Positions 10,570 through 23,985 of a DNA stretch of 64,000 nucleotides are shown here, one piece after another (the first letter of the stretch is position 1; the number at the start of each line of letters is the position of its first letter). This DNA is from Planctomycetia bacterium. Lineage in GTDB: Bacteria; Planctomycetota; Phycisphaerae; Phycisphaerales; SM1A02. The stretch is taken from positions 1 through 64,000 of the forward strand of contig SYAC01000029.1 of the NCBI GenBank assembly GCA_005787685.1, written 5' to 3'. Below the pieces are notes generated by a model. It made no database searches. It saw only the letters and a program-made list of their open reading frames with translations, and had not been told where the DNA came from. Both the position numbers and the translations under genes were made by a program.

Positions 10570-11703
10570 ATGGGTGTGCCAATTAGCCAAATGTGGACGG
10601 TTGCGAGTTATGTTCTGAAGCAAAGACTCGCTGGACGCAAGCGATATCCCTTGGTTTTAATGCTTGAGCCACTCTTTCGATGCAATCTGGCTTGCGCTGG
10701 TTGCGGAAAGATTCAGTACCCAGCCCACGTCCTAAAACGCAACTTGACGGTTCAGGAGTGCCTAGACGCCGTCGACGAATGTGGCACCCCTATGGTCAGT
10801 ATCCCTGGCGGGGAGCCGCTGTTGCACCCCGACATTCAGCAAATTGTGGAGTCCTTGGTGGAGCGTAAGAAATATATTTATCTATGCACCAACGCCTTGC
10901 TCTTGAAGGAAAAACTCGAGGCTGGCACATTCAAACCCAGCAAATATTTGACCTTTAGCGTGCACATGGATGGTCAAGAAGAGAACCACGACTTCGCGGT
11001 CTGCCGCGAAGGCACGTATAAACGAGCCGTGGACGGAATTCGTCTGGCTGTGAAGATGGGCTTCCGCGTTACCACCAACACAACGCTCTTTGAGGGTGCA
11101 GATCCAAATTCAGTTCGCGCATTCTTTGACGAGATGATGTCCCTTGGCGTTGAAGGCATGATGATTAGTCCCGGCTACGCCTATGACAAGGCGCCGGATC
11201 AAACCGCTTTCTTGAAGCGCAAGGAAACCAACGAGCTCTTTGAAATGATTCTTTCCAATCGCAAGAAGGGTTGGAAGTTCAATCAGAGTCCGCTGTTCCT
11301 TGAGTTTCTCATGGGCAAGCGTTCGTATGAATGCACGCCGTGGGGCATGCCTGCCTACAATGTATTTGGTTGGCAAAAGCCCTGCTACTTGTTGCAAGAA
11401 GGCTACGCCGACACGTTTCAAGAATTGATCGATGAAACTGATTGGGCCAACTACGGTCACGAAAGTGGCAACACCAAGTGCGCTAATTGCATGGTGCACA
11501 GCGGCTATGAAGCCACCGCGGTGGACCACACATTCTCTGGATTTCAGGGCATTTGGGGCAATATCAAGGCCATCGTGTTCAATCGCTACGCCAATCCTGG
11601 GGCGGTGAAAAAATTGGCGGTCGAAGCCAAGAAGCCTCATGGACCAATGAAGCATTTGGTGCAACTTGGCTTGGCGCAGGATATTCATCGGCCCGCGGCT
11701 TAA
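10570..11703 (+). CDS. hpnH: Hopanoid-associated radical SAM protein HpnH (adenosyl hopene synthase)
   Basis: This 377-residue protein matches HpnH: MGVPISQMWTVASYVLKQRL, PLVLMLEPLFRCNLACAGC with the CxxxCxxC cluster motif, GGEPLLHPDI, and a C-terminal Cys-containing SPASM-like region (CTPWG, NTKCANCMVHSGYEA). HpnH adds a 5'-deoxyadenosyl group to diploptene, the first step to extended C35 hopanoids. No squalene-hopene cyclase or other hpn gene lies in the window, so this gene is separated from the rest of its pathway. A GAGGAG lies 12 nt before the ATG, a rather long spacing. Confidence 0.93.
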   Translation: MGVPISQMWTVASYVLKQRLAGRKRYPLVLMLEPLFRCNLACAGCGKIQYPAHVLKRNLTVQECLDAVDECGTPMVSIPGGEPLLHPDIQQIVESLVERKKYIYLCTNALLLKEKLEAGTFKPSKYLTFSVHMDGQEENHDFAVCREGTYKRAVDGIRLAVKMGFRVTTNTTLFEGADPNSVRAFFDEMMSLGVEGMMISPGYAYDKAPDQTAFLKRKETNELFEMILSNRKKGWKFNQSPLFLEFLMGKRSYECTPWGMPAYNVFGWQKPCYLLQEGYADTFQELIDETDWANYGHESGNTKCANCMVHSGYEATAVDHTFSGFQGIWGNIKAIVFNRYANPGAVKKLAVEAKKPHGPMKHLVQLGLAQDIHRPAA

Positions 11704-11805
11704 CGCGCTGTTCGTGCCCATGTGGTCAAGTGGCGTGAGCTGCGAATGTTTTTATGTTCACAGGAACAAACGCAATCAACATTGCAGCTGCGTTGTGCGT
11801 GGGAA

Positions 11806-12534
11806 TTAAAGTTGCTCAAATGAAGTGGCGGACACGCTTGCAAAGACAGAGGAAATTTCCGCTTGCACGCCGCGCGCGTTCGCTATGAAGTCTTGAACTT
11901 TGGCAAAGTCCTTCACGCCGCGCGAACTTTCCACGCCGCTGCTGACATCCACAGCCCATGGCTGCGTTTGTGTCATTGCGGCAGCAACATTGTCGGGTGA
12001 AAGTCCGCCGGCAAGAATGAGTGGCAAGCGATTGGTCCAAGGCGCGCTTGAGCGACTCCAATTCCAGCCAACACCCGCGCCGGCGTTGGGCGCATCCACC
12101 AAGAGTGCGCTGATCTGTTCATGCGGACAGTGTTCGAGCAGGTTCAACTGTTCCAGCCGGCAGCCATAAATACGCTTGCGCTGAGGTCCTCCAGTGGCTT
12201 CATACACCTGAAGGGCTCCCGGCCAAGCCTGCAACTGGCTCGGTGTCACTTGCGACCAACTTTGCATGACCAAAACAGGCGTTGCATGCTTCGGCAGGGT
12301 TTCACGGGGGTTATTCAAATTGGCATTGTGCAAGGTTAATTGCGGCTGAATGCGGGTTGCCATGTGACCAGCGATCTCCAGGGCGCTTTGGAAGCCAATG
12401 TGCCGCGGCGAGCCTGGCGCAACCACAAATCCCACCGCGTCCGCGCCAAGTTCGCAAGCGCGTAGGGCGTCATCCAAGGTTCGAAGTCCGCAAATTTTCA
12501 CCAATGTTTTCAATTTACCACTTCGATTTTGCAT
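11806..12534 (-). CDS. trpF: Phosphoribosylanthranilate isomerase
   Basis: This 242-residue TIM-barrel protein contains the TrpF signatures VKICGLRTLDDALRACELGADAVGFV (first strand and loop), LLVDAP, LILAGGLSPDNV and AVDVSSGVESSRGVKD. It carries out the third step of tryptophan synthesis, the Amadori rearrangement of N-(5'-phosphoribosyl)anthranilate. It stands alone, divergent from citrate synthase with 42 bp between starts. The other trp gene in the window, trpB, is 45 kb away, so the pathway genes are dispersed. Its length is a little above the usual 200-220 residues because of the C-terminal tail. Confidence 0.9.
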   Translation of the reverse strand: MQNRSGKLKTLVKICGLRTLDDALRACELGADAVGFVVAPGSPRHIGFQSALEIAGHMATRIQPQLTLHNANLNNPRETLPKHATPVLVMQSWSQVTPSQLQAWPGALQVYEATGGPQRKRIYGCRLEQLNLLEHCPHEQISALLVDAPNAGAGVGWNWSRSSAPWTNRLPLILAGGLSPDNVAAAMTQTQPWAVDVSSGVESSRGVKDFAKVQDFIANARGVQAEISSVFASVSATSFEQL

Positions 12535-12543
12535 GCTTATAGA
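12514..12543 (+). promoter_or_regulatory. Candidate promoter of citrate synthase
   Basis: A TTTACC (12514-12519) and a TATAGA (12538-12543) are separated by 18 bp, giving a likely transcription start near 12550 and a leader of about 27 nt. The -35 part overlaps the start of the divergent trpF. Pattern-based only. Confidence 0.35.
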
Positions 12544-12576
12544 CTACGATCTTCCTTCAATCTTGAAAGACCAACA

Positions 12577-13737
12577 ATGAGTATTGCTACGCCAACCACA
12601 CCAGTCATACCCGCGTTTGATAAAGGCCTTGGAAACACCGTTGCGGCTGAAACGCAAATGTCGTTTATTGACGGCGGGCGAGGTGTTCTTGAATATGTTG
12701 GAATTGAAATTGACGCGCTTGCGCGCAACAGCACATTTGAAGAGACGGTGTTCTTGCTCTGGAATCGTCGATTGCCAAAGCAATCGGAGTTGAACGCCTT
12801 CAGCGAGCAATTGCGCGCCGAGTACGCGCTGCCGCAAACGCTTGTCAATCTGATCCGTGAAATGCCGCGCGCTGCGGGACCAATGCATGTGTTGCGAACG
12901 CTTGTCAGCGCGCTTTCCTTGTTCGACAGCGAAGTGGACAACGACAGCGTCGAAGCCAACAATCACAAAGCCATTCGCTTGCTGGCCAAAACTCCTGCGC
13001 TGATCGCGGCATTTGATCGCCATAGAAAAGGCAAGCCCATTGTGGAAGCAGACACGTCGCTGACCATGGCGCAAAATTTCTTGTACATGCTCAACGGCTC
13101 CAAGCCCACCGAGTCCATGGCCAGGGCGCTTGATGTGTGCTTGATTTTGCACGCGGACCACGGTCTGAACGCCAGCACCTTCGCGGCGCGCGTGACCATT
13201 TCAACGCTCAGCGACATGTATTCCGCCATGGTGACTGCCATCGGCACGCTCAAGGGCCCGCTGCACGGCGGCGCCAATGAGGAAGTGATGATCATGTTGA
13301 ATGAAATTGGAAGCATTGAAAATGTAGACGCCTATATCGCTGAAAAACTGCGTAAAAGAGACCGCATTATGGGATTTGGCCACCGCGTGTACAAGGCAAT
13401 TGATCCGCGCGCCACCTATTTGAAAACATTCTCCAAGCAAGTTGCCGCCGATACGGGCAATCTAAATTTGTTTGAAATGAGCCGCCGCATTGAGGAGATC
13501 ATGGCCAAGGAAGTTGCAGCCAAGGGCATCTACCCCAATGTGGATTTTTATTCCGCGACCACATACCACTCCATTGGCATTGACCTGGATTTATTCACAT
13601 GCATGTTCGCCATGAGCCGCATTGCTGGCTGGGCAGGACATTGCATTGAACAACTCGATGGAAACCGCTTGATCCGCCCAAACGCGGCGTACATTGGTCC
13701 GCATCAGCAGCCCTATGTCGCTGTTGATCAGCGTTAA
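12577..13737 (+). CDS. gltA: Citrate synthase
   Basis: This 386-residue protein carries the citrate synthase active-site segments: LKGPLHGGANEEV (substrate His), IMGFGHRVYKAIDPRA (second His) and NVDFYSATTYHSIGI (catalytic Asp). AGWAGHCIEQ and NRLIRPNAAYIGP complete the C-terminus. It condenses acetyl-CoA and oxaloacetate in the TCA cycle. The ATG at 12577 is preferred to an upstream in-frame TTG because it gives the standard N-terminus and lies downstream of a plausible promoter. The absence of the long N-terminal NADH-binding extension of enterobacterial enzymes suggests the shorter type I (dimer) form. 2-Methylcitrate synthase is a possible alternative. Confidence 0.92.
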   Translation: MSIATPTTPVIPAFDKGLGNTVAAETQMSFIDGGRGVLEYVGIEIDALARNSTFEETVFLLWNRRLPKQSELNAFSEQLRAEYALPQTLVNLIREMPRAAGPMHVLRTLVSALSLFDSEVDNDSVEANNHKAIRLLAKTPALIAAFDRHRKGKPIVEADTSLTMAQNFLYMLNGSKPTESMARALDVCLILHADHGLNASTFAARVTISTLSDMYSAMVTAIGTLKGPLHGGANEEVMIMLNEIGSIENVDAYIAEKLRKRDRIMGFGHRVYKAIDPRATYLKTFSKQVAADTGNLNLFEMSRRIEEIMAKEVAAKGIYPNVDFYSATTYHSIGIDLDLFTCMFAMSRIAGWAGHCIEQLDGNRLIRPNAAYIGPHQQPYVAVDQR

Positions 13738-13812: not shown

Positions 13813-14544
13813 TTATATTGAAATTACTTCGCCTTCTTGAAGGCAAGGAATGGTCGTAGACGCTGGATCAAATTCATCGTTCATATGCATCAGGCGCATC
13901 TTCAAACGGATTTTTGGCGCAAGTGAGTTGAGCAACTCAACCGGCGTGTGGGTGGGGGGTGGACTGGTCTCGTGAATGATCAAGTCCGCGTCCTTGGCTA
14001 ACCAATCAATCAATGAGGGATCAAATGGAGTGTCCGAACTCCACGCAATCACCTTTCCATCCGCCTTGAATTTCAGCGCGCTGGTTGGAATTGGGTGTTG
14101 CGTGCCGCGGCAAGAAACTTTCATACCCCCAATCAGGCTTTCGCGTTCTTGATTGAGAAAGTGAATTTCAAAATAATCGCTCAATTTGGCCGCCCCCGAT
14201 TGATCCATGGCTGGAGCAAGCCGCTCCCAAAGTCGATCCGCAACCGGCTTCCAGAGATGAAGTTTGGGAAGCGACGCGCCAGTTTCGCGGTGGTGCAACC
14301 AACGCAAAAAACCAAGGCTTTCAAGTCCGTTGCAGTGGTCGCCATGCAGATGAGTCACAATGACATCAGTGATGGCAAGTTGATCAATCTTCCAACCCGA
14401 CTTTTCCTGGGCCTGGCGTAGCGCCATTGGATATGAGTCTGGACAATCAATCATGATTTGGCCAGTGGGACCTTGGATGATGGCGGAGCATCCAAATCGC
14501 CGCGCGGAAAATGCGTTTCCAGTTCCGATGATGAGCAATCGCAT
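13813..14544 (-). CDS. MBL-fold metallo-hydrolase, RNase Z-like
   Basis: This 243-residue protein has LIIGTGNAFSARRFGCSAII, the metal motif THLHGDHCNGLESL, a later CRGTQHPIPTSA, SSDTPFDPSLIDW and IHETS. The order and spacing match the RNase Z/ElaC group of metallo-beta-lactamase folds. The true RNase Z exosite is not visible, so a nuclease role in tRNA 3' processing is uncertain and a small-molecule phosphodiesterase is equally possible. The gene is convergent with citrate synthase and divergent from the beta-barrel gene at 14662. Confidence 0.85.
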   Translation of the reverse strand: MRLLIIGTGNAFSARRFGCSAIIQGPTGQIMIDCPDSYPMALRQAQEKSGWKIDQLAITDVIVTHLHGDHCNGLESLGFLRWLHHRETGASLPKLHLWKPVADRLWERLAPAMDQSGAAKLSDYFEIHFLNQERESLIGGMKVSCRGTQHPIPTSALKFKADGKVIAWSSDTPFDPSLIDWLAKDADLIIHETSPPPTHTPVELLNSLAPKIRLKMRLMHMNDEFDPASTTIPCLQEGEVISI

Positions 14545-14661: not shown

Positions 14662-16149
14662 ATGGCAAGAGGAGTTGTGGTCCTGATCATTGGCGCGCTC
14701 TTAGGCTTGGTTCAGCAAGCCTACGCGCAAAATGTGAACGCGCTCGCCAATAATCTTCAGCGTCAACTGAATTCGGAGGATGCGCAATATCGCCAGGACT
14801 ACTTCAAGGAAACTCCAATCGCCGACCGATTGATGTTGGATGCGGGCGGAACATTTCGCTACGCCTACAACATGATTCAAAATTCACAAAGTCAAAGCCA
14901 ATATTTGACTACCCCGGATGTGCGGCTATTTCTGCGCGCTGAACTTGACGGTGGTCTGCGTTTCTTTGGTCGATTGCGATTTTTGTACAACGAATGGGAC
15001 ACCAACGGCAGCCGCTATTTAGCGCCGGATGCCAAAGAGCGCGGGTGGCAGAATCCAATCGGTGAAATTTATTGGGGCACATTTGATCTTGGTGGTTTTA
15101 CCCACGCCACCGCCGCCGAATCAAAGCAGTTCAACATTGTGGTGCAAGGTGGGCGCAACTATGTGATTTGGGGACAAGGCTTGGTCTTGAGCAATTATAT
15201 GTACGCGATCAAGACTGAATTAACGCTGGGCGATCTTGGCATTGAGGGAATGTTCGCTCAAACCGCGGGTGAGGACACCGTTGATTGGGATACTTCGCGG
15301 CCAGGCTTTGACACAAATACCTCGCGGATTTATTCCGGCATGAAAATTGATTGGCGGGGGTTCGCAGCGCACAAGCCCTATGTATACGCGCTTTGGCAAA
15401 CGGATCAGAACGGCGGGCAACAAAATAATCTTGGCTCAAACGCGTTTCCAATTCCAACCACATTCAATTACAACAGCGGCTATGCGGGGGGCGGTAGCAT
15501 TGGAAGTTTGGGACCCAATTTGGTGTATCGCGGGGAATTTGCCTATGAATTTGGCTCCACATTGAGCGACTCGCTTAATCCGAGTAGCCCAAGCCTTTCA
15601 CAACCGCAAGTGGAAACCGACATCAGCGCCGCCGCCGGAATTGCTGGGTTGACCTATTTGCTGCGCGACGAGGGCGACACGCGATTTGATCTTTCGGTGC
15701 TTGCAGGAAGTGGCGACAAGAATCGCTTGGATAGCGGCACAACCTTTGGTGGCATCGCTCCGAACAATGTCGATCGTTCATTCAACTCGCTTGGGTATAT
15801 CAATACTGGGTTCGCTTTGGCGCCGGATCCGGCGAATTTACTCTGTCCATCGGTGGGGCTGAGCACCAATCTGTTGCCATCCGTATCGTGGACCCGCGAT
15901 TTGCGCTTAGGCATGACTGGCTACTTGTTCACCAAGATCGACAATCAAGCGCCCATCAATATTCTCACCCGCCCTGGCGGTTCCAATCTTATTGGCGGTG
16001 AAATTGACACCACTCTAGATTGGCGCATTTCGAGCGACATTAATTTCAATATTCGCTACGGTGTTTTTATTCCAAACAGCAGCGTTTTTTACAATAATCA
16101 AGGGGCAATTCGCCAATTTTTTTATGTGGGGATGACCTATGCGTTTTAG
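14662..16149 (+). CDS. Outer-membrane beta-barrel protein, alginate-export-like
   Basis: This 495-residue protein begins with a signal peptide (MARGVVVLIIGALLGLVQQA, cleavage near AYA-QN), which is why the ATG at 14662 is chosen over upstream in-frame starts. The rest alternates short polar and aromatic-rich strands, for example GGTFRYAYNM, LRFFGRLRFLYNEW and NFNIRYGVFIP. It ends in a C-terminal Phe (YVGMTYAF), typical of outer-membrane barrels handled by BamA. The central region resembles the alginate-export type barrel family. The next gene starts inside its last 11 bp, so it is translationally tied to the lipoprotein. It likely forms a channel or surface partner for the FecR system downstream. 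Substrate unknown. Confidence 0.7.
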   Translation: MARGVVVLIIGALLGLVQQAYAQNVNALANNLQRQLNSEDAQYRQDYFKETPIADRLMLDAGGTFRYAYNMIQNSQSQSQYLTTPDVRLFLRAELDGGLRFFGRLRFLYNEWDTNGSRYLAPDAKERGWQNPIGEIYWGTFDLGGFTHATAAESKQFNIVVQGGRNYVIWGQGLVLSNYMYAIKTELTLGDLGIEGMFAQTAGEDTVDWDTSRPGFDTNTSRIYSGMKIDWRGFAAHKPYVYALWQTDQNGGQQNNLGSNAFPIPTTFNYNSGYAGGGSIGSLGPNLVYRGEFAYEFGSTLSDSLNPSSPSLSQPQVETDISAAAGIAGLTYLLRDEGDTRFDLSVLAGSGDKNRLDSGTTFGGIAPNNVDRSFNSLGYINTGFALAPDPANLLCPSVGLSTNLLPSVSWTRDLRLGMTGYLFTKIDNQAPINILTRPGGSNLIGGEIDTTLDWRISSDINFNIRYGVFIPNSSVFYNNQGAIRQFFYVGMTYAF

Positions 16150-16921
16150 TTCCCTGCCATTTTTGGGCTGCGTGTTGTTGCTTTGCGCATGCCAGCCCTA
16201 CATGATGAAATCGTCAGCGGTGGACCAGTTCGCCGGGCCACAGCAAGAAATTGAATTTCTTGACGCGCTTGAGGACATGTCCGCGGTGACCAACAACGAC
16301 GCGTTGCATGGCTTGCTCATACTTGCGGATGGAACGGATCCCTCCAAGGATTATCAAGACCGCGTTGCGGAGGGCGTGCGCCGTAAATGGCTTTCAAGTT
16401 CATTTGATCAACAAGCCAACGCGAGCGCGGATCTTGGTTGGATGGCGGGGGCTGGTTGCCGCATCATGAAAATTCAAGGCGGCTTCACCATGAGGATCTT
16501 CGGGCCCATAGATCGCTATGCGTTGAAGGAGTTGATCTACATGGAAATTCTTCCAATGCGCACCGACAATCAATCGCTGACTGGCGCGGAATTTATCGAC
16601 TACATGAATCGTCTTGAGCGCATCGCCTCTCGGACCTCGTTGAAGGTGGGCGAACTGCAACTTGATCAAACCGCGGGGCAGTCCGCCGTGACGCCCGCCA
16701 ATGAAGCCGCAATTCAAGAGGGAACAATGCCCGCCGCTGGGCCATTGGAAGAGCCGCTGGTTGTGCCCCCAGCATTTGAGCCCGCCAATCAACCCAATGC
16801 GCCATCAAACCCGATAAATGATTTTCCAGAACCCATCAACTCGGCTACCCCAAAAACGCCACCTTTGCCCATGAGCGGCTCAATTCGGTTCATTCAAGGG
16901 GTATTTTTGATTGTTATATGA
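16139..16921 (+). CDS. Lipoprotein of unknown function, partner of the beta-barrel
   Basis: This 260-residue protein has a clear lipobox (VLLLCACQPYMM), with Cys at about residue 19. The body holds a mixed alpha/beta region (about 35-165) with DALHGLLILADGTDPSKDY and CRIMKIQGGFTMRIFGPIDR. It then ends in a Pro/Asn/Ala-rich tail (about 185-260). I do not recognise the family. The start overlaps the barrel gene by 11 bp, so both are probably made together and meet at the outer membrane. The Pro-rich tail could reach other envelope partners. The gene is followed by a 118-bp gap and then the FecR-domain gene. Confidence 0.7.
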   Translation: MRFSSLPFLGCVLLLCACQPYMMKSSAVDQFAGPQQEIEFLDALEDMSAVTNNDALHGLLILADGTDPSKDYQDRVAEGVRRKWLSSSFDQQANASADLGWMAGAGCRIMKIQGGFTMRIFGPIDRYALKELIYMEILPMRTDNQSLTGAEFIDYMNRLERIASRTSLKVGELQLDQTAGQSAVTPANEAAIQEGTMPAAGPLEEPLVVPPAFEPANQPNAPSNPINDFPEPINSATPKTPPLPMSGSIRFIQGVFLIVI

Positions 16922-17039
16922 CTTGCATTGCATGAATTAAATTAGATAGTAAATGAATATAGATTGAATTTAAGTGCCAATGAAAGTTCTAAATCAGGTT
17001 GAAGTGCGTAGGTCAACAATAGAGGAAAGCGTGATTGAT

Positions 17040-19859
17040 ATGAAAACAACAAATACCATCAATCTTGCGGGCGGAACACTCACACTAGCCATGTCTATTG
17101 CCGTAGCGTCTGTTGCACAGCACGCCTGGGCGGATGACATGACGCAAAGCGTGCCAGCCGAGGAGGTTCAAGACGCAAATGGCGCCGATGTGGTCGCATT
17201 GCAAGCCATCTTTATGGATGTGCAAGGCAAAGTTCGTTGGAGAACAAGTGAATCCTCGCCTTGGACAGAAGCGAAAGTGAACGATCTGCTTGACGCGGGC
17301 GCTGAAATTAGGACCGGGTTGAAGAGTCGCTCTACTTTGCGTGTTGGAAAGAATGCAACCATTTTGGTGGATGCTGGAACTACATTCCAATTGCCAGAAA
17401 TGGTGCAGGATGGCCAAACTCTGCGCACTTTGGCAACGGTCAAAAGTGGGCGCGCGGATTTTAAAGTTGACCATGTGGGTTTCTCCAATGATTTCAACGT
17501 GGTCACACCACAAACCACTCTGGCAGTTCGTGGAACAGGTTTTGCGCTGGCCTCCGGTCCTCTCAAAGGCGTTGATGTTGCGGGAGCCAACACCAACACA
17601 ATCAATGCGATCGAGGTGAAATACATCGCCGCAAACATGTCGTACTTCGTTTCTGGTCAAGGTAAAACATCTTCCGAAGTTGGCAAGCAAGACCCCGTGC
17701 AGAATGCCTGGGTAAGCACCATTGGTCCGCCCCCCATTGTAGGAACCCTGGTGAGCCAGTCCGATGTTCAGCAGCAAGTTGCCCAAGGCATAGCGGGCGC
17801 AAATCCAAGCTCAAATATCCAGCAAATTCAGCAGACTCAAGCGGGTGAGGCCAATCAAAATGCAATTGATACGGCGCTTGTGTTGGCCTCTGATACGGGT
17901 GGTGACACAGGCGACAGCGGGGGCGGTTATTCGCTGTTTCAGGCCGATGCGGAGTCAAACAATCTTGGCATTTCATTATTAAATGCCGACGCGCAAAGCA
18001 ACAGACGTCAAAGCGACCGTGATTTGCAGAGTTTCAACCAAAATTTTGCGGCGTATGAAAGTGGTCAATGGACGGAGTCATTGCTGGCGTTGAACACCTT
18101 GTGGAATGGATCAAGCATTATTGTGCAAGATGGCGGCTACAACTATGGGTTCACTTCAAGGAGTGGCGTACGGGCATTGTTGGAGAATATAAAATATCAA
18201 ACTCTCCAGGGTCTTGCGGAATCGGATAACAAATTGAACTCGATCAGCTTTGATGCCGGCGCCTATTTTAATGCAGATAACTCTAGTGCCGTCATTTCAG
18301 AGTTGGCTTTCCAAGACGGAGCAAAGTTGAACGGCGCGACAAATAGTCTTTTGTCGCTCAGCCAAAGCGCGCTGGACAATCGAAATATTGCCGAAAATCT
18401 CAATGCGTCCGTGCAGACGGCATTTGGGCTTGTGAATGTTTCCCACAACAATCTCATCAACGCTCAAATCGCCCTGAATGGGTTGCAAACTGGAAGTGAT
18501 TTATCCGTTGGCTACACCAACTTGTTCAGAAGTGAGTTTGCCAAGATGACCAGGTTTCTTAGCAACTTGGAAAGTTTAATCGGTACTTCCACAAGCGCCC
18601 TATCGCAACAGGCCTACGCCAAGCTGGCTGGCGTGGTGGCTTCCGCGTCCATCAATGTTGCGCAGGGTTTAGTCGCGGCGCAAATCGCTCGTGACAATTT
18701 CAACAATGCAAGCAACCGTGGCACTCGGGCATTGTTCCAAGCCGAAGAGCAAAAGTATTTGGAGGCGGTGCGCATTCGTTTGGACTCGATCGCCTATCTC
18801 ACCAAGGCAAGAACAAATCCGGATGGTTCGCCCGCGCCCGATGGTGCCGATGGCATACGGGAATTGACCGCGCAGATTATCGATAATTTCAATCAAGCCA
18901 ACAGCCAATTTGCTTATGACAGTTTCAGTGATTACGCCAGGCCACATGTGAACGAAGCTGGAATTGCCAAGGATACAATTGTGGCATTGGCAGGTGTGTC
19001 AACGGACAATTCTGCTTTGGCCATGGCAGAACTTGAGGATGGCAGTGCCAATAAAGCTGCTATTGATGATCAGTTGGCAATCATGACAAACGCAGTGGAC
19101 ACCATGCGAAATCGATTTGGCAACGCGGATGCTCAAGGCCAATTTCAAGATGCGACACTCATGGCCTTGAGTTCGCAGAGCGATTTAGATTTTATCAGTT
19201 CGAATTTATTCAAGAGCAACTTCGACCAATTGTTCGCTAATGGCGCAAGGCAAAATAGTTTGGATAGTGATTTAAATGGATTGCAAGGCTTAAACGACCT
19301 GTATTCGGGAGCTACTTCAGTTCAAGCAAGAGCCGATCAAGTCTTTGGTGAGATTCACAGCGCACATAACAGCGCTATTGCCGCCAATGGTGAGATTAAT
19401 GGTTTGACTCAAACATACAACTCGCGTTTATCTGAAGCAAATTCAAATGCGTCCGCGTCAAATACGACATTTCAGGAGCAATTTGCCAACAGCCAAGCCA
19501 CCGCGGATAAATATCTTCAAGATTTTACAACAATTGTGGGAGCGAACACCACAGCCGCCGCCACACAAGCCTTGCAGGCTGTGACTGCTTTGGTGGGGGA
19601 GCATAATGCCTATGTGACCCAAGCCCAGGTTGCCGTCAACACGGCTTTGGCAGCGGCCGGTACAGCGAGTACGCGTGGTCAACAGGTTTACATGGGCGCT
19701 GTGGCGGCGCGAATGAGTGAGGCTGCGATCATTCAGGCCAATGCGATTCAAGCCAGGTTGAATGTCATTACCAACGGCAGCGCAATACAAGATAATTACG
19801 CTCAAGCCCAAGCAGATTACAACTCACTGGGGAACTCTGACAATGGAGATGACATTTGA
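17040..19859 (+). CDS. Very large FecR-domain exported protein
   Basis: This 939-residue protein (from the ATG at 17040) has a signal peptide (TLTLAMSIAVASVAQHAWA). A FecR domain follows at about residues 50-175: VRWRTSESSPWTEA, LRVGKNATILVDAGTTFQL, and TPQTTLAVRGTGFAL. A Gly/Ser/Asp linker follows. The remaining 650 residues are Ala/Asn/Gln/Ser-rich and predicted mainly helical, without Cys or recognisable catalytic motifs. A GTG at 17031 is a good alternative start because GAGGA (17022-17026) lies 4 nt before it. FecR domains usually relay periplasmic signals. Here the next gene is a CHASE2 cyclase, so the FecR protein may be its periplasmic input. Base composition resembles its neighbours. 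Confidence 0.8.
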   Translation: MKTTNTINLAGGTLTLAMSIAVASVAQHAWADDMTQSVPAEEVQDANGADVVALQAIFMDVQGKVRWRTSESSPWTEAKVNDLLDAGAEIRTGLKSRSTLRVGKNATILVDAGTTFQLPEMVQDGQTLRTLATVKSGRADFKVDHVGFSNDFNVVTPQTTLAVRGTGFALASGPLKGVDVAGANTNTINAIEVKYIAANMSYFVSGQGKTSSEVGKQDPVQNAWVSTIGPPPIVGTLVSQSDVQQQVAQGIAGANPSSNIQQIQQTQAGEANQNAIDTALVLASDTGGDTGDSGGGYSLFQADAESNNLGISLLNADAQSNRRQSDRDLQSFNQNFAAYESGQWTESLLALNTLWNGSSIIVQDGGYNYGFTSRSGVRALLENIKYQTLQGLAESDNKLNSISFDAGAYFNADNSSAVISELAFQDGAKLNGATNSLLSLSQSALDNRNIAENLNASVQTAFGLVNVSHNNLINAQIALNGLQTGSDLSVGYTNLFRSEFAKMTRFLSNLESLIGTSTSALSQQAYAKLAGVVASASINVAQGLVAAQIARDNFNNASNRGTRALFQAEEQKYLEAVRIRLDSIAYLTKARTNPDGSPAPDGADGIRELTAQIIDNFNQANSQFAYDSFSDYARPHVNEAGIAKDTIVALAGVSTDNSALAMAELEDGSANKAAIDDQLAIMTNAVDTMRNRFGNADAQGQFQDATLMALSSQSDLDFISSNLFKSNFDQLFANGARQNSLDSDLNGLQGLNDLYSGATSVQARADQVFGEIHSAHNSAIAANGEINGLTQTYNSRLSEANSNASASNTTFQEQFANSQATADKYLQDFTTIVGANTTAAATQALQAVTALVGEHNAYVTQAQVAVNTALAAAGTASTRGQQVYMGAVAARMSEAAIIQANAIQARLNVITNGSAIQDNYAQAQADYNSLGNSDNGDDI

Positions 19860-19948
19860 TACGGCGAGGATTGTGAACCAACAGCGACGCGTCTTTGCTT
19901 TTGAGTAACTCCGAGGGCTCTTTCAATGAAATGTTATAGACTCTCGTA

Positions 19949-22639
19949 GTGAAGAATATTCGCTCGATCGCGTTATGGGTTGGTGGCGCCGTTGTGGCGA
20001 TGGTGTTGGTATTGAATGCCATTGACATATTTCGGTGGCTTGAAGAGTGGACGCTTGATTTACGTTTCCGTTATGGAAGGTGGGAAATTGAGGATCCCGG
20101 CGAGCAAATCGCATTGGTGGCGATTGATGATGCCAGCCTAGACACGATTGGTCGTTGGCCGTGGAAGCGCGAGTTGTTGGCACAAGCCACGCGTGAAATA
20201 GCGCGCGCAGGCGCCAAGACCATCGCCTACGACATTTTATTTATGGAGCCCGAGGAAGGTACAACTGGTAATGCCAATGGGGACGCTGATTTAGCGGCCG
20301 CCATGGAGCAGTCGCAGTGCGTTGTGGCGCTTTCCGTGCGCGAGGAAAAAGTGTTAGACCCAGTTTGGGAAACACCCTTGGGACAGGAGCAACTGTACGC
20401 ATTCACAACCGCGGTCGCCGCGGGCATACATAGGGATATTAAAGTAATTATCGCCGAGGCGGGGTTGGTTGATCCCTTTAAGTCAAGAGTTCTGGAGCGG
20501 CCATTGGCGCTGAAAGGTTTGGCGGCTTGGCTCACGCTTGAGCGCTTGCGATTACAGGGCAAGTTGCCCAGTACGCTGGATGAGTTTGTGGCTGTGATGC
20601 TTGGTGGCGCAACCAAGGCCGAGTATGTGGGTGAATTTGGAGAAAGAAAAATCCTGGAGCGGGTGTGGTTGCGTGGGGAAAGTTGGAGAGCCATTGAAAA
20701 TAAATTTTTGGTCGACGCCCTATCCAAGGGAACTCCGCAAGATCTGCCGCCCATTCCTCTCATCGCCAAAGTTGCCAAGGCCGCCGGGGTGGTGAACGCG
20801 GAACCCGACAAATTTGACGGTAAATTACGCAGAATTCCACCTTACTTTCCAACTGATTATGGTCTGGCACCGCAATTTGGTTTGGCGGCGGCCCTGGCGT
20901 TCCAAGGTCAAAGCGTTGCCGCCACGCAGTTGAATCAGGATGGTTTGATGAGTGGCGACAAGGTTATTTCCATACGCGATGGCAAGGTGTTGGTGAATTG
21001 GCCAACACAACTTCTCACGGGCTACGGGACTCAAGCAGGCCGCAATGCCACGGTGAGCATTGGGCGCTTGATTGAGCAAGCGCGCGCGCGCGCAACCCTT
21101 GCCAGGCAAGAGGCACGCTTGCGAGAATTGGGAATTGAAATCGCAACTGGGGTGCTTGGAAAAACTCCCCAATGGTTTGAAGGCGCCTACAAAGATGGGC
21201 GCTTGAAAAGTGAAATTTTGGATATTTGGAAAAATGATTATGAGGAACATTCCAAAGATTTGGATATGGAGCCGCAACTTAAAAAAGCCGTGGATGGATT
21301 GCGTGAATGGGTCATTGCCCAGAAGGTATTTGAGGAGGATCGCACCAAAGTCGAGGAGGGCGATGGTGAACTGCGCCAGAGGCTTGGTGGAAAATTGGTA
21401 TTTGTGGGGTTCACCGCCACGGGCGTGATGGCCGACATGATCAACACCATCTTTGGTCCGCGCACGCCCGGAGTATTTGGGCACATTGCGATGGCTGATA
21501 TGGTGCTGAATCAACGGGTGCTGCACTACGCCCCGCAGTGGCTTTGTCCCTTGGCCATTCTTGTTCTTGGTCTTTCATCCACCTTGGCGGCATCGCGATT
21601 TGGCGCGGGAATAGGCGCGTTCGTGGTGTTTTTTGTTGCGGCACTCTATGTTGGATTGTTTGGAGTTGTTGGCTTTGATTGGGGTGAATTGATTTGCCCA
21701 ATGGCCGCGCCGGTCACGAGCGGGTTTGGCGCGTGGATTGTGACCACCGTGGCGGTGGCGGTGATTACGCAGCGCGAAAAGCAGCGCGTCACACGGCAGT
21801 TTCGCGCCCGCGTGTCGCCACAGTTGGTTGAGATGCTGTCCAAAAATCCCAACGCGCTCTCCATGGGTGGCGTCGAGCGCGAGGCAACTATTTTATTTGG
21901 CGACTTGGCGGGCTTCACAAGCATCAGCGAAGTGCTAGGCGGACCCGCCGTGGTGAGCACCTTAAATTTATACATGGGAGCCATGACGAAGGAACTCACC
22001 GATCGCCGTGCCTATGTCAATAAATTTTTAGGCGACGGAATTCTTGCTTTCTGGAGCGCCTTCGGCCAGGAACCAGAACAGGGACGCCTAGCCGTGGAGG
22101 CCGCTTTGGCGTGCCAAAAAGTTGTGAATGAAATTGGAACAAGACCGGATCGGCAAGGCTTGCCACTGGTGTCGCTGCGACTTGGAATGGCAACGGGCAA
22201 GGTGGTCATTGGTGATTGTGGCGCGCCACCAGACCTGAATGATTACACCATGATCGGCGACGCTGGAAATTTGGCGGCGCGTTTGGAGAGCGCGAACAAA
22301 CAATTTGGTACCGTGATTTTAATTGACGGCCGTACCGCGGAGTTGGCAAAGGCGAGCGGTTTAGCATTGCTCTCGTTGGGTCGCGTGGTGGTGGTGGGGC
22401 AAACTATTCCAATTGATCTGTATGAAGTGTGCATGGAGAATGACCCTGCGGCGCGCATTGCCACCACGGAATCAATGGTGCGCTTATTCACCGCCTGCAA
22501 ATTTCAGGAGTGCCGCGCAAGTTTGGCCGACATGGTGAGGACATTGCCGGGATCTGAAAAACTTGTTCACGCCTTCATGGACGCCTTGGATAATCCAGAT
22601 GACCTGCGTGATGGCGTGTTGCGCTTGCGCGCCAAATAA
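19949..22639 (+). CDS. CHASE2-domain membrane adenylate/guanylate cyclase
   Basis: This 896-residue protein starts with one membrane segment (about 5-27), then a long extracytoplasmic CHASE2 sensor (about 30-500) with IALVAIDDASLDTIGRWPW and KTIAYDILFMEPEE. Three membrane segments follow (about 530-610) and a class III cyclase domain (about 640-800). The cyclase has metal-binding Asp residues in LFGDLAGFTSIS (Asp near 652) and NKFLGDGILAFW, plus the ribose/transition-state segment NDYTMIGDAGNLAARLE with Asn and Arg. It is therefore probably active and makes cAMP (cGMP is possible). The GTG start sits 8 nt after TATAGA, compatible with a leaderless mRNA. It lies directly after the FecR gene. 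Confidence 0.88.
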   Translation: MKNIRSIALWVGGAVVAMVLVLNAIDIFRWLEEWTLDLRFRYGRWEIEDPGEQIALVAIDDASLDTIGRWPWKRELLAQATREIARAGAKTIAYDILFMEPEEGTTGNANGDADLAAAMEQSQCVVALSVREEKVLDPVWETPLGQEQLYAFTTAVAAGIHRDIKVIIAEAGLVDPFKSRVLERPLALKGLAAWLTLERLRLQGKLPSTLDEFVAVMLGGATKAEYVGEFGERKILERVWLRGESWRAIENKFLVDALSKGTPQDLPPIPLIAKVAKAAGVVNAEPDKFDGKLRRIPPYFPTDYGLAPQFGLAAALAFQGQSVAATQLNQDGLMSGDKVISIRDGKVLVNWPTQLLTGYGTQAGRNATVSIGRLIEQARARATLARQEARLRELGIEIATGVLGKTPQWFEGAYKDGRLKSEILDIWKNDYEEHSKDLDMEPQLKKAVDGLREWVIAQKVFEEDRTKVEEGDGELRQRLGGKLVFVGFTATGVMADMINTIFGPRTPGVFGHIAMADMVLNQRVLHYAPQWLCPLAILVLGLSSTLAASRFGAGIGAFVVFFVAALYVGLFGVVGFDWGELICPMAAPVTSGFGAWIVTTVAVAVITQREKQRVTRQFRARVSPQLVEMLSKNPNALSMGGVEREATILFGDLAGFTSISEVLGGPAVVSTLNLYMGAMTKELTDRRAYVNKFLGDGILAFWSAFGQEPEQGRLAVEAALACQKVVNEIGTRPDRQGLPLVSLRLGMATGKVVIGDCGAPPDLNDYTMIGDAGNLAARLESANKQFGTVILIDGRTAELAKASGLALLSLGRVVVVGQTIPIDLYEVCMENDPAARIATTESMVRLFTACKFQECRASLADMVRTLPGSEKLVHAFMDALDNPDDLRDGVLRLRAK

Positions 22640-22653
22640 TTTTTATTGGAGTT

Positions 22654-23985
22654 TTATTTTAGAAGGCGCTTCAAAATAATCGCCGTGCGATCATCGGCGG
22701 CGGGAGCCGCTGCCGTCCAATCCATCAATGAATCATTGATGGCGCGTAAAATAAATTCCGCGCTTTCATCGCGGTGCTTGCGTACCAAATCCATAACGGG
22801 TTGCTCTTGATATTGCTGGCCATTGGTTCCCTCGGATTCGTAATAGCCGTCGGTCAAGGCGATTAAAATATCACCGGTATGCATGGTGATCACGGTGGAG
22901 TCGCCGCTTTCTTCGTCGATCATCACGCCAAGCGGAGCGTTGTCGGTGGGCAGGATTACAAAATCATTGTCGCGTCTTCGATAATGGATGATTGGTCCTT
23001 GTCCTGCCGCGTAATTTTCAACCACGCCGTTGTGAAGTGAAACGCGCGCGTACCACGCCGTGACAAAGCGCCCCATGGGCAAATCTTGGCAGAGTTGGCG
23101 ATTGGCCTCTTGGGCAATGCTGCGCACATCTTGCTTGAAGCGCAGACCAATGCGTAACATTCCCCGCACTTGCATGGCGGAAAGCGCGGAACCAATGCCG
23201 TGCCCGGTGGCGTCCGCCACCAACAAAACCAGTTCGTCAATGTCGTGGTCCGGCTCCACAATGGTGTTGTTGAGCAGAGGAATGACATCAAAGGCGTCAC
23301 CACCACATTGCTCCGCGGGAATTCCGGAAGCCGCGACTTGCCAGTTGTTCATGGGCGGCAAGGCCCGGGGAAATGAACTTTGCTGAATGGAGCGCGCGGC
23401 CATCAGGTCGCGCTCCATGCGTTCACGCTCCATTCGATCCTCCATGAGTCGACCGCGGCGAATGGCGACCGCTGCTTGCGCTGAAAGTCCAAGCGCAATC
23501 TCCTGATCTTGATCGTTAAATGGACCATTGGAACTGTTGAGCACTTGCGCAACCCCAACTAATCCTCCTTCATGGTCTATCAGTGGAATGGCCAGCATGT
23601 TGCGCGTTCGAAAGCCAGTGGAATGATCAACGGATTGGTTGAATCGCGGGTCGGCATATGCGTCTGGAATGTGGATCAATTTCTTGGATTGCGCCGCGGC
23701 GCCGGCAATGCCGCGGTCGGCGGGAATGCGGATGACATTCGATCCGGTATTGGAAATGCCATGCGCGACTTGCGTGAAAAGTTGATTGGCATCTGCGTCA
23801 AATTCAAAAACGGTGGCGCGTTCAGCGTTGAGCAAATCCCGCAGCGCGTCAATGACGGTTGAAAGCACCACAGACAGTTCACTGGACTCGGATAAGCGTC
23901 GTGAAACCATGAGCAATTTGGTTATGACTTGCGATGGAATATTTTTCAGTTCCTGCTGTTCAATTGGGTCGATTGGCGTGGACAT
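22654..23985 (-). CDS. GAF-SpoIIE (PP2C-type) serine/threonine phosphatase
   Basis: This 443-residue protein has an N-terminal GAF domain (about 25-185: LLNAERATVFEFDADANQLF, IPADRGIAGAAAQSKK, TRNMLAIPLIDHEGGLVGVA). A short coiled linker and an RsbU/SpoIIE-type PP2C domain (about 215-440) follow. The phosphatase core shows CGGDAFDVIPL, LLVADATGHGIGSALSAMQV and ILIALTDGYYESEG, all carrying the metal-binding Asp residues. Proteins like this dephosphorylate anti-anti-sigma factors or other regulators in response to a small ligand or redox signal. No anti-sigma kinase or STAS partner lies nearby. It converges on the CHASE2 cyclase with only 14 bp between stops. Confidence 0.88.
   Translation of the reverse strand: MSTPIDPIEQQELKNIPSQVITKLLMVSRRLSESSELSVVLSTVIDALRDLLNAERATVFEFDADANQLFTQVAHGISNTGSNVIRIPADRGIAGAAAQSKKLIHIPDAYADPRFNQSVDHSTGFRTRNMLAIPLIDHEGGLVGVAQVLNSSNGPFNDQDQEIALGLSAQAAVAIRRGRLMEDRMERERMERDLMAARSIQQSSFPRALPPMNNWQVAASGIPAEQCGGDAFDVIPLLNNTIVEPDHDIDELVLLVADATGHGIGSALSAMQVRGMLRIGLRFKQDVRSIAQEANRQLCQDLPMGRFVTAWYARVSLHNGVVENYAAGQGPIIHYRRRDNDFVILPTDNAPLGVMIDEESGDSTVITMHTGDILIALTDGYYESEGTNGQQYQEQPVMDLVRKHRDESAEFILRAINDSLMDWTAAAPAADDRTAIILKRLLK

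Follow-up and report, generated by a model that had tools for sequence, protein, structure and literature searches.

The four genes at positions 14662–22639 of the window (the 64,000-nucleotide stretch of DNA analysed here, with position 1 as its first letter) form an old, conserved unit that probably acts as a trans-envelope receptor with a cyclic-nucleotide output, comparable to the NsrA–CyaK pair of Sinorhizobium meliloti but split into separate proteins. This kind of relay is itself known. What is new here is the split architecture, an unnamed lipoprotein family, insertions in the CHASE2 region, a FecR protein with a variable tail and a divergently encoded MBL-fold candidate.

An earlier note on this DNA had described four same-strand genes, and all four open reading frames are indeed intact on the + strand. 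The first (14662–16149, +; 495 residues) encodes an outer-membrane β-barrel with a signal peptide and, as had been noted, a C-terminal Phe. It matches the Pfam family Alginate_exp (PF13372) at 28.9 bits against a gathering cut-off of 25.2, over profile positions 132–377 only, and the match recurs in three further barrel homologues that were tested. An alignment of 18 barrel sequences contains 38 invariant columns, and the N-terminus carries a conserved, helix-like LxRQLxxxD segment. The second gene (16139–16921, +; 260 residues) encodes a lipoprotein and starts, as reported, inside the end of the barrel gene with an overlap of 11 nt; the offset of −10 from the barrel end recurs in most relatives. 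It is followed by genes for an exported FecR-domain protein (17040–19859, +; 939 residues; PF04773, 26.8 bits) and for a CHASE2 receptor with a class III cyclase (19949–22639, +; 896 residues; CHASE2 134 bits, Guanylate_cyc 40 bits). A possible, weak intrinsic terminator lies at the end of the cyclase gene (22612–22634, +), but sites of this type are fewer in the observed sequence than in shuffles, so that the site alone is no evidence. No Rfam elements were found between positions 12000 and 26000 of the window. The block is flanked by a divergent gene for an MBL-fold hydrolase (13813–14544, −) and by a convergent gene for a GAF–SpoIIE (PP2C-type) phosphatase (22654–23985, −).

The conservation of this arrangement was assessed by searching 298 genomes of the class for cyclase homologues; the neighbourhoods of the closest ones showed the block. 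The named genomes were scanned with the barrel alignment, giving 80 loci, nearly all in records titled as planctomycetes or as unnamed bins, and the ratios below count those loci with enough DNA. The lipoprotein gene follows the barrel gene in 75 of 75 testable loci and a FecR gene is present in 66 of 68. A search for the same gene order in relatives had been set beforehand as a check on the earlier note, and the order held: the whole block is present in 43 of 45 testable loci, with FecR preceding the cyclase in 38, a pair of FecR genes preceding it in four and the cyclase preceding FecR in one. The order recurs down to 31% barrel identity, well beyond what chance would give. The cyclase regularly adjoins both FecR and barrel genes, contrary to the outcome named as damaging to the proposal, a CHASE2 homologue never found beside either. 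The link between barrel and lipoprotein, put forward as an oddity, is instead the rule in Phycisphaerae with the block. At four loci (L132, L134, L136 and L140) the two FecR genes stand in tandem between the lipoprotein and cyclase genes.

Full flanks are available at 31 loci. All 31 have both the lipoprotein and the cyclase, 22 have the MBL gene and 17 the SpoIIE gene, while the other flanking (housekeeping) genes are retained in 0–13. Across the class, the lipoprotein was found in 120 of the 298 genomes and the cyclase in 146, with the cyclase in 117 of the 120 lipoprotein genomes (Fisher P of about 3e-50, not corrected for phylogeny); 29 genomes have the cyclase without the lipoprotein. The two genes lie close together in 56 of the 107 genomes in which both could be placed, and in the rest the cyclase is elsewhere or on another contig. 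When eight genomes with an unlinked cyclase were checked, the barrel adjoined the detected lipoprotein in seven, and FecR was detected beside them in four. One locus, L159, has the lipoprotein (183 bits) followed by the FecR domain (81 bits; E = 3e-27 for a search of this sequence alone, with a model built without L159) in a single open reading frame (11052–12986). The cyclase at this locus is on the opposite strand.

The lipoprotein is a new component from a previously unnamed family, with no match to any Pfam family. Its lipobox Cys18 is invariant across 67 homologues. The core of the AlphaFold model has a pLDDT above 90, and in a Foldseek search against the PDB the top 13 matches are all SLH domains, mostly with a probability of 0.99–1.00, although E is about 0.02–0.12 and the TM-scores to the query are modest (0.26–0.38). 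The SLH profile (PF00395) matches none of the 67 homologues at E ≤ 1, and no PF00395 proteins were found in the relatives. The predicted fold appears to resemble that of SLH domains, and we describe the protein as SLH-like without assigning it to the SLH family.

The catalytic residues of the class III cyclase are all present (the metal-binding Asp652 and Asp696, Lys692, Thr767, Asn774 and Arg778), confirming the earlier description of an intact enzyme. The Lys/Thr pair suggests an adenylate cyclase of class IIIb. The messenger would be cAMP, or possibly cGMP. The MBL-fold protein carries a THLHGDH motif, which agrees with the metal motif [T/S]HXHXDH, the signature of the atypical class II phosphodiesterases Rv1339, YhfI and CpdA (PMC9293780). 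Its best NCBIfam model is that of a cyclic-nucleotide phosphodiesterase (NF041851), although the score of 57 bits is far under the equivalog cut-off of 400. At 38 of 66 loci the MBL gene lies divergently to the barrel gene, and within the family it is found in 21 of 23 genomes with the block against eight of 38 others. The protein is a candidate cAMP or cyclic-nucleotide phosphodiesterase that would serve as the off-switch of the system. The GAF–SpoIIE gene had been suggested to belong to the same response; it is present on the opposite strand as described, but it adjoins the block in 19 of 39 loci and is an optional associate, and the MBL-fold gene, missed earlier, is the likelier partner.

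The closest known analogue is NsrA–CyaK. On genetic evidence, nsrA and cyaK are needed for the cAMP response of S. meliloti to a plant signal protein (PMC7529298), cAMP signalling through CyaK depends on nsrA, and the C-terminal region of NsrA is described as a β-barrel (PMC7529298, PMC13001267). These genetic results are the chief functional footing for the comparison. The gene that overlaps cyaK is recorded as a FecR domain-containing protein and encodes a FecR domain (residues 66–160), TPR repeats and a C-terminal region (annotated record and profile search); its size, position and domains lead us to identify it as nsrA. The two systems share a FecR domain, a helical middle, an outer-membrane barrel and a CHASE2 class III cyclase encoded in one operon, and the window has both the intact cyclase and the exported FecR protein encoded beside it. 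However, barrel and FecR form one chain in NsrA, whereas the window and the examined relatives encode them in separate open reading frames; the annotation shows no lipoprotein gene next to nsrA and cyaK; and two large insertions in the CHASE2 region (about 130–268 and 365–470) are absent from CyaK. The FecR domains match at the profile level only, and the barrels belong to different families, with no sequence similarity detectable by profile comparison (probability 0.1%). The window block very plausibly works as NsrA–CyaK does, but because its barrel is unfused and shows no homology to that of NsrA, we treat it as a variant of this kind of system and not as a member.

FecR beside CHASE2 has already been described in Burkholderia and Campylobacterota and is present in rhizobia. 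In Campylobacterota, genes for CHASE2 cyclases are grouped with those for a cAMP phosphodiesterase and a FecR outer-membrane protein (PMC9239204), a set comparable to that of the window with its candidate phosphodiesterase, but with an extra TPR protein and no such lipoprotein reported. The Burkholderia BiofilmReg operon likewise pairs an exported FecR protein (LysM–FecR) with a CHASE2 receptor (PMC5192318), although its output is a histidine kinase with a response regulator and it has no barrel. In FecA–FecR–FecI a FecR-type domain is also coupled to an outer-membrane barrel, whereas the block lacks a TonB-dependent receptor and a sigma factor, and the window FecR protein consists of a signal peptide, the FecR domain and helices without a cytoplasmic anti-sigma part. 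No ECF sigma gene lies beside the block, the adjacent genes being the MBL and GAF–SpoIIE genes. A literature search that covered few subscription papers returned nothing joining FecR, Planctomycetes and adenylate cyclase.

In the relay that we infer, with its ligand, signal-binding protein, physical contacts and direction of signalling, the barrel, with the SLH-like lipoprotein at its periplasmic side, would respond to a ligand outside the cell or to the condition of the envelope; the lipoprotein may also be bound to cell-wall glycan. The exported FecR protein would use its helical tail to span the distance between this outer-membrane assembly and the CHASE2 domain in the periplasm. There the FecR β-domain would alter the cyclase dimer and so the output of cyclic nucleotide, and the MBL-fold enzyme would remove the messenger. 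A relay from barrel and lipoprotein through FecR to CHASE2 had been proposed in the earlier note. It gains support from the conserved order and the flank control, the co-occurrence (also with an unlinked cyclase), the fusions, including that of lipoprotein and FecR, the requirement for nsrA in the analogous system, the Campylobacterota gene cluster, the catalytic residues and the MBL motif. Against it count the lack of similarity to the NsrA barrel, the profile-level FecR match, structures predicted as single chains, the 14 of 23 block genomes of the family in which no recognised cNMP-binding protein was found and the 29 cyclase genomes without the lipoprotein. Nor would a fixed docking partner be expected to diverge as fast as the FecR tail does.

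The FecR β-domain (about 54–182) is confidently predicted by AlphaFold and is followed by a low-confidence linker (about 200–300), by helices predicted with mixed confidence and, at 627–931, by an all-helical region that is again confident. The earlier note had singled out a 650-residue helical tail as unusual; the model supports its helical nature, while its great length proves to be lineage-specific. Total length ranges from 143 (likely a fragment) to 2001 residues in relatives, with tails of about 100 to 1800 residues, although close relatives mostly keep it (1263 and 1263; 939, 942 and 958; an exception is 460 against 1231). The tail in the window has no internal repeats by self-comparison and no detectable homologue beyond its nearest relatives, and matches of the helical part in the PDB are generic helical bundles. 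The GC content drops to 0.486 at positions 18001–20000, and the hypervariable tail (17940–19859 in the window, and the tails of loci L084–L142) lies beside a highly conserved domain and neighbours. The tail diverges far faster than the neighbouring sequence: between the window and locus L110 it is 37–52% identical, against 92% for the FecR domain and 87% for the barrel. This contrast, and a variation in length often seen in exposed proteins, would suit the main rival reading of the tail. Here the FecR protein would form a fibre on the cell surface: its β-domain would be retained in the periplasm as a plug, the tail would reach the exterior by way of the barrel, and the cyclase would sense surface contact when the plug is pulled or set free. 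In the model, a stretch of 65 residues also matches a 'Cell surface anchoring domain' (PDB entry 5ix9; TM-score 0.75 on the target, r.m.s.d. 1.7, E = 0.22). We nevertheless consider such a fibre unlikely: the helices of NsrA are N-terminal to its barrel and hence presumably periplasmic, most close pairs show purifying selection on the tail, and Alginate_exp-type barrels are not known to export proteins. Positive selection on the tail was rejected, as dN is below dS in all pairs compared, and a single short pair is alone in having a ratio near 1. These observations agree with a spacer or rod whose sequence is weakly constrained.

The Alginate_exp match above the cut-off, shared by the three further members, raises the alternative that the barrel is no receptor but a transporter or exporter, for example of polysaccharide, with the lipoprotein as its accessory and the cyclase adjusting the process. 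This too seems improbable, since genes for polysaccharide synthesis were not seen among the conserved neighbours (the flanking genes tested being those of the window), the neighbours that are conserved encode a candidate phosphodiesterase and a phosphatase, and the barrel is tied to the FecR and CHASE2 proteins. Least credible, and only very slightly probable, is that the genes adjoin by inherited synteny without a joint function. The relatives are metagenome-assembled genomes and thus non-independent samples, which would favour such an account, but the flanking genes decay while the block stays, fusions exist (at L159 and in NsrA) and the genes still co-occur where the cyclase is unlinked; chance or inherited synteny was rejected on these three grounds.

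How a signal passes from the outer membrane to a CHASE2 receptor in the inner membrane is an unsolved problem, and the environmental factors recognised by CHASE2 domains have been described as unknown (PMC5192318). The separable barrel, lipoprotein and FecR parts make each step of the preferred relay testable, and the spread of the lipoprotein in the sampled genomes suggests that this form of signalling is widespread in Phycisphaerae. More tentatively, such receptors may extend across the planctomycetes, with the SLH-like lipoprotein coupling the barrel to a FecR protein whose length differs between lineages, and with a cyclic nucleotide reporting surface contact or the state of the envelope.

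Within the family, cNMP-binding proteins occur in nine of 23 genomes with the block and in four of 38 others (P = 0.012), a distribution that led us to reject a universal downstream receptor. The sole cNMP-binding protein found in the window's genome (contig C35, L163, 1348–2886, −) is fused to an MscS-like channel and resembles bCNG channels; it is shared closely by just four genomes and is a possible direct target of the messenger. The same genome encodes two cyclases, the second being a class III enzyme with a HAMP-like region located away from the block (C42:6719–7228, L164).
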